In this document: piece by piece, positions 15,678 through 33,357 of the stretch | Numbering within the stretch: the first letter of the stretch is position 1 | How the letters are laid out: the number at the start of each line of letters is the position of its first letter | Origin: Trichocoleus desertorum NBK24 | GTDB taxonomy: Bacteria > Cyanobacteriota > Cyanobacteriia > FACHB-46 | Assembly (NCBI RefSeq): GCF_030409055.1 | Contig: NZ_CP116619.1 | Location: 3,325,628 to 3,389,627, forward strand | Direction of reading: 5' to 3' | DNA length: 64,000 bases | Made by a program: the position numbers and the translations under genes | Notes under the pieces: model-generated | Told to the model about the DNA's origin: nothing | Database searches by the model: none | Seen by the model: the letters and a program-made list of their open reading frames with translations, nothing else

Positions 15678-18600
15678 TTATGGTGGGGAGGTGGCGATTT
15701 TGAGGGTAGTGATTTTCCAAGGAGCAATTTGAACTGTCGCAACACCTTCAACTTGACCAAGAGAAGCAGTTGCTTGTTCTAGAAGATTTACGGGATGGGC
15801 GATCGCTAAGTCTAGGTCGCTGTGTAGGGTGAGTTCGGCAGGCTGACCATTGCATTCGTAGCACCGCAAGATCCACTGTTGGGGGTCGTCTTCGGATTGT
15901 TTGAAGGCGCTTAAAATTAGGTTTTTGGCTGAGAGGTTGAGGAGTTGGCTTTGAGGGGGAAGTGTGGCTCGTGAGTGGGAGGGCGATCGCTGGGTATCTA
16001 GCAGGACTGTTTGTAAGGGAAGGTTGAGTTCGTAGCCTTTACGGACGGTTTGAGCAGTTTGCCAGTTGCCTATATGAGGGTAGAGGGCGTAGGTGAATTG
16101 ATGTTGGCCGCGATCGGCTTCGGGGTCAGGCCAGGTTGCTCCTCGTAGGAGGGTGAGGCGAAGCTGATTTGGTTGGGCATCGTAGCCGTATTTGCAATCG
16201 TTCAGCAGGCTGACGCCGTAGTCTTCAGTGCTTAGATCGGCCCAGTGGAGGGTGGGAACTTCCCACTTGGCTTTGTCTCTCGGTTCGGTAGGGTTGGTGG
16301 GGCGGGCGATCGCGCCGTATGGAATTTCATAAGCGGCTTGCTCTGCTTCCACGGTCAACGGAAAGGCGGCTTTCACCATCACATGCCGTTCTTGCCAGTT
16401 AACTTGAGTGACAATTTTGAGGACTGGATCATCAGCTTGCAGCACATAATCTTGGCAGAATTCTGATTGGCCCAGTTGCCGTACAACGCGCACTCGCTGC
16501 AATAGTTCACCGCGATCTAGCCACTGAATTGACTTGAGTTTGGTTGGGGGTAAGGGATGTTGGGCGTAGTTAGGATCGATGTTCCAAGCGTCCCAATACT
16601 GTCCTTGGTCTTGAAAGGCTTGGATTTGATTGCCTGCACCACTCAATACTTCGCGCTGCTGAGTTTTGTCCCAAACACTGTTCAAGTCCCCTGTTGAAGG
16701 ATCAATGGTTACTTGTAAGGCAGCATTTTCTAAAATCCATTCTTCATGGCGTAAGGCAGTGGTAGGTGGCTCCGCGGTTGCTTGCGGACACAACCAGAAA
16801 ACGCGATAGCCTACTCCAGGAATTTGCTCTGCCCAAAACAGCAGAGTGGGAATTGGCTGGCCTTGCTCATCGTAGTTTGTAGTTTGGCTAGCAACTGGTT
16901 CACCAACTGAGTTATAGACTTGCCAGGTAGTTTCGGATGGCAAAGGGATTGAAACGACCTGCGATCGCGTCCAATTCAAGGGATTAAATACCACAATCGG
17001 CTGGGCATTAGGATGAGGGGATTCAGGCAGTTGGATATGAGAGGCGATCGCTTGCAAGCTTGCCTGTAGTAGCACTTGCCCAGTTTGCTCTGCTTCCTGC
17101 CAAAGCTGATTCGCATCGACAAATACTTCTGGAATCGATGACCCTGGCAGAATGTCGTGGAATTGATTAAACAGCATTTTCTTCCACGCTGCTTCTAGCT
17201 CTGCTTTGGGGTACGCAGCACCCGTCGTCAATGTGGCAAATGAGGCAAATAATTCTGCCTGGTAAAGCAACTGCTCACATCGACGGTTCCAGCATTTTTG
17301 CTCGGCGTGCGTGGTGTAACAGCCTCGGTGGAATTCGAGGTAGAGTTCGTCGTTCCAAATAGGGAAGGGTGAGGAGAGAGGAGTGAGGGGTGAGGGGTGA
17401 AGTGAAGAATGAGAGAGATTTAGCCCTGCCGTTTTTGAAGCATAGGATGAAGGATGAGGAATGGCTTCGTCACTTCCTTCCGGTTCCTGACTCCCGACTT
17501 CTAGCTCCTCACTCCACCCTTCGGGAACGCTTTCAGCGAACACTCCTCTCCCCTCACTCCTCACCTTCCCCAAATACTCCTCTGCTGTTGTAAATCTCAA
17601 TTGTGGGAAGAAAGGCGAGGTGTGCCAGCGTCTTGCCATTTCTAGCATGTCTCTTGTAGGGCCACCGCCATGATCTCCGACACCGGGTAGCCAGAGGGTT
17701 TCGAGGTTGCCTGTCTTGGTTTCCCACATTGAGGCGTGCTGGGTCATTTTGATCGGGTCAATGCTTTCGCCAATCGGGGCAGACATGACGCTAAAGATTT
17801 CGCTACCGTCTGGCGATCGCCACCAAAAGGCTTCGTAGGGAAAATGGGTGGTGTCGTTCCAGCACAGCTTTTGGGTAACGAAATACTCGATGCCGCCTTG
17901 CTTGAGGATTTGGGGCAACTGCCAGCAGAAGCCAAAGGTATCGGGGAGCCAAGCGATCGCACTGGTATGACCAAACTTCGCTTGGGTGTAGCGCTGCCCG
18001 TACAGCACTTGGCGCACAATCGATTCACCGCTGACCAGGTTCAGTTCTGGCTCAACCCACAAACCTCCCACGACTTCCCAGTTACCTGCTGTCACTTGGG
18101 CTTGAACGGCGGCAAACAAAGCGGGACGGTTGGCTTCAATCCAAGCGTAGAGAGCAGGGGTGGAGTGACAAAAAATCAGTTCTGGAAAGTCTTGTTGCAG
18201 TTGCAGGGCTGACTTGAAGGTACGCTCGGCGGCTTCCCAGGTTTCGCTCACAGGCCATAACCAAGCTAGATCCAGGTGGGCATGACCCAACAAACAAATT
18301 TGGCGCTGCTTGATCCAATCGCTAAACGGTTGCAGAGTTTGGCGTAGTTGCTGCAAGGACTGATCAAACTTGACGGGAGAGCGATCGCCTGCGTTGAGAG
18401 CATTCCAATCGAGATGCGCGATCGCGGCTGCCAAGTCTGCTAATTTTTCTGGGGCAAAGGTGTTGAGGTATTGCTGGAGCACGGCTAGCTCATCGGCGAC
18501 AAATCCTGGCTCGACGCGATCGCCCAAAGTTACTGTGTTAGAGGCAACTTCGTAGAGGCACAGCGATCGCACCAAGGCTCCATCGTCATGTCCGGGGCTT

Positions 18601-19031
18601 ACTAGGCGCAAAGCTACAGCGATCGTTTCTCCGGGTTTAGCTGCTGCACTGAGCAAGATGCGGGTGGAGCAGTCGAACAAATCGCCTTCCTGAACTAGTT
18701 GCCCGTTGACAAAAATTTGAGCGGATTCGGCCCACCAAGTTAGAGCTAAGCGCAGAACTAACCCCTCCAGCGGATAGCCTCGCAAATCGTTAGGGGTTAC
18801 CAACTGCTGCCCCAGCCACAACACCTGCTGTCCCTTATCCCAGGCAATATGTTCTCTGGCGTTCAGCTCTACGGTAGACCAGGTTTGCCATTGCTCTGGT
18901 TGAGTTGCCTCAACAAGGGGCAGATCTCCTAGGTGCATCTGCCAGCGACTTTGTATATTGAGCTGTGTGAGTTGGCGCAACTGAGTGATTGCTTCAGAAA
19001 TTTCAGCCTGGAGTTTCGCTGGGTCAGCCAT
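15678..19031 (-). CDS. Alpha-mannosidase, glycoside hydrolase family 38
   Basis: A 1,117-residue GH38 enzyme, which removes alpha-mannose residues. The zinc-site motif GHAHLDLAWLWP, the nucleophile in WLPDTFGF (Asp near residue 364) and GDHGGGPT are all present, followed by the long beta-sandwich C-terminal region. About 70 residues (roughly 488-557) between LGKV and FPIWNDELYL are low-complexity, Ser/Pro/Glu-rich and encoded by an inverted-repeat element (17361-17570); this stretch is absent from what I know of the family. No signal peptide, so it is probably cytoplasmic, perhaps for glycan recycling. The gene stands alone and is divergent from the 19146 gene. Confidence 0.93.
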   Translation of the reverse strand: MADPAKLQAEISEAITQLRQLTQLNIQSRWQMHLGDLPLVEATQPEQWQTWSTVELNAREHIAWDKGQQVLWLGQQLVTPNDLRGYPLEGLVLRLALTWWAESAQIFVNGQLVQEGDLFDCSTRILLSAAAKPGETIAVALRLVSPGHDDGALVRSLCLYEVASNTVTLGDRVEPGFVADELAVLQQYLNTFAPEKLADLAAAIAHLDWNALNAGDRSPVKFDQSLQQLRQTLQPFSDWIKQRQICLLGHAHLDLAWLWPVSETWEAAERTFKSALQLQQDFPELIFCHSTPALYAWIEANRPALFAAVQAQVTAGNWEVVGGLWVEPELNLVSGESIVRQVLYGQRYTQAKFGHTSAIAWLPDTFGFCWQLPQILKQGGIEYFVTQKLCWNDTTHFPYEAFWWRSPDGSEIFSVMSAPIGESIDPIKMTQHASMWETKTGNLETLWLPGVGDHGGGPTRDMLEMARRWHTSPFFPQLRFTTAEEYLGKVRSEGRGVFAESVPEGWSEELEVGSQEPEGSDEAIPHPSSYASKTAGLNLSHSSLHPSPLTPLSSPFPIWNDELYLEFHRGCYTTHAEQKCWNRRCEQLLYQAELFASFATLTTGAAYPKAELEAAWKKMLFNQFHDILPGSSIPEVFVDANQLWQEAEQTGQVLLQASLQAIASHIQLPESPHPNAQPIVVFNPLNWTRSQVVSIPLPSETTWQVYNSVGEPVASQTTNYDEQGQPIPTLLFWAEQIPGVGYRVFWLCPQATAEPPTTALRHEEWILENAALQVTIDPSTGDLNSVWDKTQQREVLSGAGNQIQAFQDQGQYWDAWNIDPNYAQHPLPPTKLKSIQWLDRGELLQRVRVVRQLGQSEFCQDYVLQADDPVLKIVTQVNWQERHVMVKAAFPLTVEAEQAAYEIPYGAIARPTNPTEPRDKAKWEVPTLHWADLSTEDYGVSLLNDCKYGYDAQPNQLRLTLLRGATWPDPEADRGQHQFTYALYPHIGNWQTAQTVRKGYELNLPLQTVLLDTQRSPSHSRATLPPQSQLLNLSAKNLILSAFKQSEDDPQQWILRCYECNGQPAELTLHSDLDLAIAHPVNLLEQATASLGQVEGVATVQIAPWKITTLKIATSPP
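17361..17570. mobile_element. MITE-like inverted-repeat element read through in frame
   Basis: About 210 bp with imperfect terminal inverted repeats: the left end (17362-17385) reads GGGAAGGGTGAGGAG and the right end (17541-17570) in reverse complement reads GGGAAGGTGAGGAG, both continuing to AGAGGAGTG. CAAAT flanks both sides (17356-17360 and 17571-17575), like a 5-bp target duplication. The inside carries typical cyanobacterial repeat strings such as TTCGGGAACGC. The element plus one flank is 215 bp, not a multiple of three, so later small changes must have kept the frame open if it inserted whole. Confidence 0.6.
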
Positions 19032-31622: not shown

Positions 31623-33209
31623 ATGCGAGTTTTACTCCTCTATCCGCTGTTCCCCAAAAGCTTTTGGTCGTTTGAAAAAACTCTAGAACTCGTCGATCGC
31701 AAAGTCTTGCTGCCACCTTTAGGGTTAGTGACCGTAGCAGCCATTTTGCCTCAAGAATGGGAATATAAGCTGGTCGATCGCAATGTCCGCGCTGTCACAG
31801 AAGACGAATGGGCTTGGGCTGACTTGGTAATTCTCTCCGCCATGATTGTGCAGAAAGAGGATTTCTTGGTCCAAATTCAAGAAGCCAAACGCCGAGGTAA
31901 ACCAGTGGCTGTGGGTGGCCCTTACCCAACTGCCTTGCCGGAAGAGGCCCAAGCGGCTGATTACTTGATCTTGGATGAAGGCGAGATTACCTTGCCACTC
32001 TTTATTGAGGCGATCGCGCGTGGCGAAACCAAAGGGGTGTTCCGTTCGGACGGCATCAAACCCGATGTCACCACAACGCCAGTGCCTCGATTTGAACTGC
32101 TCGACTTCAGCGCCTACGACAGCATGGCAGTGCAGTTCTCGCGTGGTTGCCCGTTCCAGTGCGAATTTTGCGACATCATTGTCCTTTACGGACGCAAACC
32201 CCGCACCAAGGCACCGCAACAACTCCTAGCCGAGCTGAACTACCTCTACGAACTCGGCTGGGATCGCAGCATCTTCATGGTGGATGACAACTTCATTGGT
32301 AACAAACGCAATGTGAAGTTGTTTCTCAAAGAATTGAAGACTTGGATGGAGGAGCACCAGTATCCCTTCTCCTTCTTTACGGAAGCTTCGGTAGACTTGG
32401 CCCAAGACCCAGAAATGATGGAGTTGATGGTGGAGTGCAACTTCACCGCCGTCTTCCTCGGCATCGAGACCCCAGACGAAGACAGCCTAGCCCTGACCCA
32501 GAAATTTCAAAACACCCGCGACTCTCTCAGCGAGGCAGTTGAATCCATCACCAGAGTGGGTCTGCGCGTCATGGCTGGATTTATTATCGGCTTTGACAAC
32601 GAAAAACCGGGTGCAGGCGATCGCATCGTCCAATTCGTCGAGAAAACTGCCATCCCCACTGCGTTGTTTAGTATGTTGCAAGTCCTACCCGACACGGCCC
32701 TGTGGCATCGCTTGAAAAAAGAAGGGCGTTTAGGAGATGAAACAGGCAACATCAACCAAACCACGTTGATGAACTTCGTTCCTACTCGTCCCTTAGAAGA
32801 CATTGCTCGCGAATACATGCATGCCTTTTCCGAGCTTTACGAACCGCACAAATTCCTCGATCGCGTGTACCGCCACCACTTGATCATGGGATCGCCCAAA
32901 TTTAAGGCTCCCAGCAAAATGCCAAGTTGGGTAGATGTTCGCGCTTTACTCACCGTCTGCTGGCAACAAGGCGTTGTCCGGAGTACCCGCTTCCAGTTCT
33001 GGCGCAACCTTTGGAATATTTTCAAACATAATCCCAAAGTTTGGGATCGCTACCTAACCGTCTGTGCCCACAACGAACACTTTAGCGAATACCGCCAAAT
33101 TGTTTGCGACGAAATCGAAGCCCAACTCACCGAATATCTGGCTGCTAAAGCAGAGACACAAAAAACTGCCCAAACTGTTGCGCCTAAAGTTAACGCGATC
33201 GCTGGCTAG
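31623..33209 (+). CDS. B12-domain radical SAM protein (DUF4070 type), second of a pair
   Basis: A 528-residue paralogue of the preceding protein, with the same domain order. The first ten residues are identical (MRVLLLYPLF), and the cluster motif is Cys176-x3-Cys180-x2-Cys183, again followed by VDDNFIGNKRN. As in its neighbour, no DxHxxG motif is seen. The two differ most in residues 50-160 and at the C-terminus, so they are old duplicates that may act on different substrates. Copy 4 of the two-hairpin repeat lies downstream. Confidence 0.88.
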   Translation: MRVLLLYPLFPKSFWSFEKTLELVDRKVLLPPLGLVTVAAILPQEWEYKLVDRNVRAVTEDEWAWADLVILSAMIVQKEDFLVQIQEAKRRGKPVAVGGPYPTALPEEAQAADYLILDEGEITLPLFIEAIARGETKGVFRSDGIKPDVTTTPVPRFELLDFSAYDSMAVQFSRGCPFQCEFCDIIVLYGRKPRTKAPQQLLAELNYLYELGWDRSIFMVDDNFIGNKRNVKLFLKELKTWMEEHQYPFSFFTEASVDLAQDPEMMELMVECNFTAVFLGIETPDEDSLALTQKFQNTRDSLSEAVESITRVGLRVMAGFIIGFDNEKPGAGDRIVQFVEKTAIPTALFSMLQVLPDTALWHRLKKEGRLGDETGNINQTTLMNFVPTRPLEDIAREYMHAFSELYEPHKFLDRVYRHHLIMGSPKFKAPSKMPSWVDVRALLTVCWQQGVVRSTRFQFWRNLWNIFKHNPKVWDRYLTVCAHNEHFSEYRQIVCDEIEAQLTEYLAAKAETQKTAQTVAPKVNAIAG

Positions 33210-33286
33210 AAGGAGGGGTGAGGGATGAAGGATGAAAGGGAAAGGATAAAAAAATCCAAGTCTCGAAACCCTTACATTTAAACTTT

Positions 33287-33349
33287 CTGGAGTGGGTCTG
33301 GGGGATGCAGCCGTCCCTCAGCGGGGGTTTGGGGGCAGGTGCCCCCAAG
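33287..33349 (-). repeat. Interspersed two-hairpin repeat, copy 4 (inverted)
   Basis: Reverse-strand copy between the converging radical SAM and petL genes. Hairpin 1 is perfect. Hairpin 2 has one mismatch (GGGACG against CATCCC). In the minus sense it would lie 8 bp past the petL stop. Confidence 0.85.
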
Positions 33350-33357
33350 GCTCGTCT

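Follow-up and report, generated by a model that had tools for sequence, protein, structure and literature searches.

The locus raises the question of how DNA of a dispersed-repeat type came to be read in frame inside an enzyme gene, and of what this says about the enzyme. The window (the whole 64,000-nucleotide stretch of Trichocoleus desertorum NBK24 DNA analysed here) carries, on its minus strand at 15678..19031 (stop codon included), a gene for a 1117-aa protein, P0001. All four GH38 Pfam domains were found in P0001, among them the N-terminal catalytic domain PF01074 (residues 245-492; 17556..18299, minus strand) and the alpha-mannosidase middle domain PF09261 (residues 566-662; 17046..17336, minus strand). 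Alignment revealed columns invariant across 39 orthologues, and the motifs HAHLDLAWLW, PDTFGF, GDHGGGP and FHDILPGS are all there. Judging from this domain set and these motifs, P0001 is a GH38 alpha-mannosidase, whose enzyme activity is predicted. Its nearest solved relatives in sequence and fold include fungal Ams1 and Bl_Man38A, and Ams1-type GH38 proteins (6lz1, 7vqo) and Bl_Man38A (7ufr) have the same domain order and fold as P0001. A dead gene was ruled out, as the motifs are conserved and the predicted fold is intact.

Between residues 488 and 558 (17358..17570, minus strand) lies a repeat-derived inter-domain linker of about 71 residues and 213 nt, delimited by orthologue comparison and own-genome matches. 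The original prediction had described repeat DNA translated within an alpha-mannosidase, as a low-complexity stretch between conserved GH38 segments, and this description was borne out: the frame is open throughout 17358-17570, and the low-complexity, hairpin-forming stretch sits exactly between PF01074, which ends at residue 492, and PF09261, which starts at residue 566. Structure prediction, one of the checks proposed at that time, indicated a disordered insert. In the AlphaFold2 model of P0001 (input of 39 orthologues, mean pLDDT 85.2), residues 497-553 (17373..17543, minus strand) have a pLDDT of about 30 and form the sole long stretch below 50, and the linker is thus predicted to be disordered.

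At the DNA level, the linker has inverted-repeat arms that are imperfect, as had been claimed, and consist of 7-bp strings. The arm at 17362..17401, in the 3' half of the linker, carries GGAGTGA/GGGGTGA 7-bp strings on the plus strand and is pyrimidine-rich on the coding strand, and the opposite arm at 17532..17571, in the 5' half, is purine-rich on the coding strand; the two are 75% complementary over 40 nt and 91% over the inner 22 nt. The 7-bp repeat string GGATGAAGGATGA occurs at 17445..17457 on the plus strand, and a second exact copy, with a chance expectation of 0.08 matches in 64 kb, was found at 33223..33235 (plus strand), in intergenic DNA directly after a stop codon, where the original prediction had placed a repeat string following a gene. 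Nearby, at 33285-33350, downstream of a gene ending near 33209, there is a dispersed element like GGAGGGGGTCTGGGGGACGCAACCGTCCCTCAGCGGG, and near-copies of it lie next to several of the 7-bp repeat strings at other loci of the genome (L009, L013, L016, L023). Within the linker, TTCGCTGAAAGCGTTCCCG (17522..17540, minus strand) is the core of a 24-bp block that genus comparison and genome matches place in this species only within the genus, absent from both sister species, and that has one further exact genome copy, in frame in an acyl-CoA-ligase-like ORF. Short repeat strings, mainly 7-bp GGAGTGA-type units in both orientations, and smaller blocks make up the linker stretch as a patchwork.

Such strings are widespread in this genome. 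BLAST and pattern hits placed GGAGTGA/GGGGTGA-type strings and the related block at about 36 loci, an approximate tally with contexts read by hand and two hits resembling ordinary coding sequence left out; the reversed-pattern control for GGNGTGAGGNGTGAGG was not usable, since the pattern looks like the repeat even when reversed. About 27 of the loci are intergenic, two lie at C-terminal tails and seven are in frame within ORFs: GH38, MetH, HemW, the acyl-CoA-ligase-like ORF (central block only), an NRPS, a NurA-domain protein and one further ORF. The repeat lies between Pfam domains in GH38, MetH, HemW, the ligase-like ORF and the NRPS, and inside the domain in the NurA protein; six ORFs besides GH38 therefore contain in-frame repeats, four of them at domain junctions. 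The encoded peptides differ among GH38, MetH, HemW and the others. A single site in HemW holds a GGAGTGA string, a GGATGAA string or a short linker in three congeners (L173, L174 and L175), and this domain junction, which differs in its repeats between sister species, parallels the GH38 site on a small scale. In MetH (L011 1501-1620; own genome 1021825-1021943), the linker that joins the B12-binding domain to the activation domain contains inverted arms of the same repeats in frame; this linker repeat is common to the same-genus genome G001, and in another family (L156) the MetH linker holds a repeat, SQELGARSQE. In the sister genome G002, a match to the linker peptide (68%) within an 818-aa open frame on contig C1:104888-105007 is possibly another in-frame repeat.

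Comparison with other cyanobacteria indicates that P0001 is one case among many. We extracted the linker site from 102 orthologues; across 108 orthologues, no other segment of the protein varies as much in length (s.d. 23.6 aa, compared to 9.6 aa for the next). The site spans 10 to 144 aa in cyanobacteria, whereas the aligned Ams1 sequences have a short loop there. A one-off event in this gene was rejected on the grounds that this site varies in about 100 orthologues. Among linkers of at least 15 aa, coverage by repeated 8-mers was 0.37, as opposed to 0.05 in same-length pieces of the same genes, and 43 of 85 were repeat-rich at p ≤ 0.01, so that about half of the long linkers miss this threshold. 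The fillings are diverse (GVRSQEL strings, SPASP strings, IQNPKSKIQN, KAEGRRQKAEV, FPIPNSQ and others), and two of them, VETRFIASVSN and DAINRVS, derive from the palindrome GCGATTNATCGC. The original prediction had named the same stretch in unrelated cyanobacteria as counter-evidence; what such genomes carry at this site is different repeats, not the same stretch. With the linker excluded, the gene tree requires at least 24 changes between repeat-rich and other states, a rough figure given that the latter label lumps short and undetermined linkers and that many deep forks are weak. The same site is filled by different repeats across lineages, and its content has changed repeatedly.

In most genomes tested, these fillings are the host's own dispersed repeats. 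Matches to the linkers of L112, L077, L034, L061, L083, L101, L134 and L123 turn up elsewhere in the respective genomes. Control pieces of equal length, taken from eight of the genes, hit nothing but GH38 genes among the matches listed. The 21-bp palindrome GAGACGCGATTNATCGCGTCT is present whole or nearly whole in the linkers of three Nostocales (L074, L134 and L108), with 74, 546 and 46 matches in the respective genomes (both strands, perfect palindromes counting twice), and gave no matches in the genus of the window. The linker of L087 found only itself in its own genome, among the matches listed, and the repeats of L138 and L042 look gene-internal, with none or one other copy among the matches listed.

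Given this composition, we weighed whether the stretch could be a single MITE, mobilised in trans by a transposase, inserted into the gene and then translated. The inverted arms, arm-like pieces at other places in the genome and the inverted-arm copy in MetH fit such an origin, and the CAAAT on both sides of the linker had been taken as its insertion signature. However, we reject a target-site duplication: the match between the flanking TATTTGG and CAAAT arose by chance as codons for conserved residues underwent substitution, the 3'-flank CAAAT belonging to the codons of a conserved P-(T/I)-W and the other copy to those of a conserved Y-L. In the 3' flank, CCCTATTTGGAAC of this genome corresponds to CCCACCTGGAAC in both same-genus species, and the match therefore reflects substitutions in old codons and not duplication. 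The proposed genome search for other copies did recover pieces of the arms, such as one of 37 nt at 97%, but when the whole stretch was searched in this genome no second full-length copy was found, only partial pieces. Nor did the proposed comparison of related strains yield an empty site: none within the genus is truly empty, since the linker of G002 is related to that of this genome yet different, and the short linker of G001 retains some of the 5' arm and may have arisen by deletion. The stretch is moreover composite, with one block missing in the sisters, and other lineages carry different repeats at the same site. With a target-site duplication and multiple near-identical full-length copies, two features that define MITEs, both lacking, the linker is on this evidence not one MITE, and an origin by a single such insertion appears very improbable; of the earlier idea of a MITE-like element turned linker, what stands is that dispersed-type repeat DNA forms an in-frame linker. 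Ordinary drift of a disordered linker, by local slippage and expansion within the gene, would instead make the likeness to genomic repeats convergent low complexity. Linker length varies widely everywhere, and the gene-internal look of the L138 and L042 repeats is what drift would give, but the repeats in linkers are specific ones dispersed in the same genomes, among them the 21-bp palindrome with its tens to hundreds of matches, the 24-bp block is common to the GH38 linker and another gene, and control DNA showed no such repeats among the matches listed. We thus regard drift as an unlikely explanation for the site.

A third possibility concerns the RNA: a stem-loop following the catalytic domain might pause the ribosome, so that this domain folds before the next one is made, and the hairpin itself would be under selection. 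The coding-strand RNA of the P0001 linker folds at -93.4 kcal/mol (z = -4.56), with 0 of 200 shuffles as good, and linker RNA in general folds more strongly than controls (mean z of -1.56 versus -0.30; z < -2 in 24/63 versus 0/63). On the coding strand, a purine-rich part is followed by a pyrimidine-rich one in 59 of 63 linkers, as opposed to 44 of 63 controls, and 26 of 29 spread representatives show the same order. Linkers and controls could not be told apart by the number of stop codons in the other frames. Against a selected hairpin, folding is inherent to palindromic repeats, the linker is short in many orthologues, and the purine-to-pyrimidine order, which may reflect hairpin formation, may equally follow from residue preferences at both ends, through codons for a helix end on one side and for a proline-rich end on the other. 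Selection on the hairpin therefore seems improbable to us. The wider proposal that domain boundaries of cyanobacterial enzymes are lasting capture sites, at which hairpin-forming repeats would be kept as a useful linker or as a translation pause in the mRNA, is a speculative one for which we see only a slim chance.

The account that we consider very probable is that a permissive domain junction repeatedly captures and loses the short repeats of its host, and that the P0001 linker is a disordered spacer built in this way. The junction between the catalytic and middle domains would tolerate extra residues; repeat copies would arrive there, presumably by template switching, slippage or insertion of a small element, and would survive if their length keeps the frame and no stop codon comes along. 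Once captured, they could expand, shrink or be replaced, filtered by frame, stop codons and fold, and we infer the linker to be nearly neutral as regards enzyme function. Several points speak against repeated capture: no true empty site exists within the genus, some linkers (L138, L042) look like gene-internal repeats, that of L087 matched only itself in its own genome among the matches listed, the tree labels group short with undetermined linkers, and about half of the long linkers miss p ≤ 0.01 for internal repeats.

Several known systems resemble this site in part. Very small mobile repeated elements of cyanobacteria (Elhai 2008) are reportedly dispersed short palindromic elements, and GAGACGCGATTNATCGCGTCT, likened to them by description, behaves like one. 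The short tandemly repeated heptamers of cyanobacteria (STRR, including the G-rich heptamers of Nostoc) are dispersed, mostly intergenic strings of 7-bp units (PMC4692102, PMC4679880). Dispersed and mostly intergenic strings of 7-bp units occur in this genome too, although the likeness is one of description and not of unit sequence, the units here being of GGAGTGA/GGGGTGA/GGATGAA type, in both orientations, with a minority in frame in genes. Rickettsia palindromic elements (RPEs) are small genomic palindromic repeats found in frame in unrelated metabolic genes and apparently tolerated by the protein; they belong to defined families, are about 150 bp long and encode a conserved peptide (PMC10969869). 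In-frame repeats in unrelated genes, here seven ORFs of this genome, are the point of likeness, whereas no fixed element or peptide is involved in the present case and different repeat families fill one protein site across lineages. The GH38 linker thus works like RPEs while falling outside their definition as a family with a conserved peptide.

We found no report of this GH38 site in the literature searched, which lacked most subscription papers. The site is one protein position at which the entry of small repeats into coding sequence recurred in related species, and it allows the rate, frame filter, orientation and tolerance of such entry to be measured. It extends to cyanobacteria, and without a dedicated element, a phenomenon known from the Rickettsia palindromic elements, and constitutes a natural record of small repeats entering working proteins.
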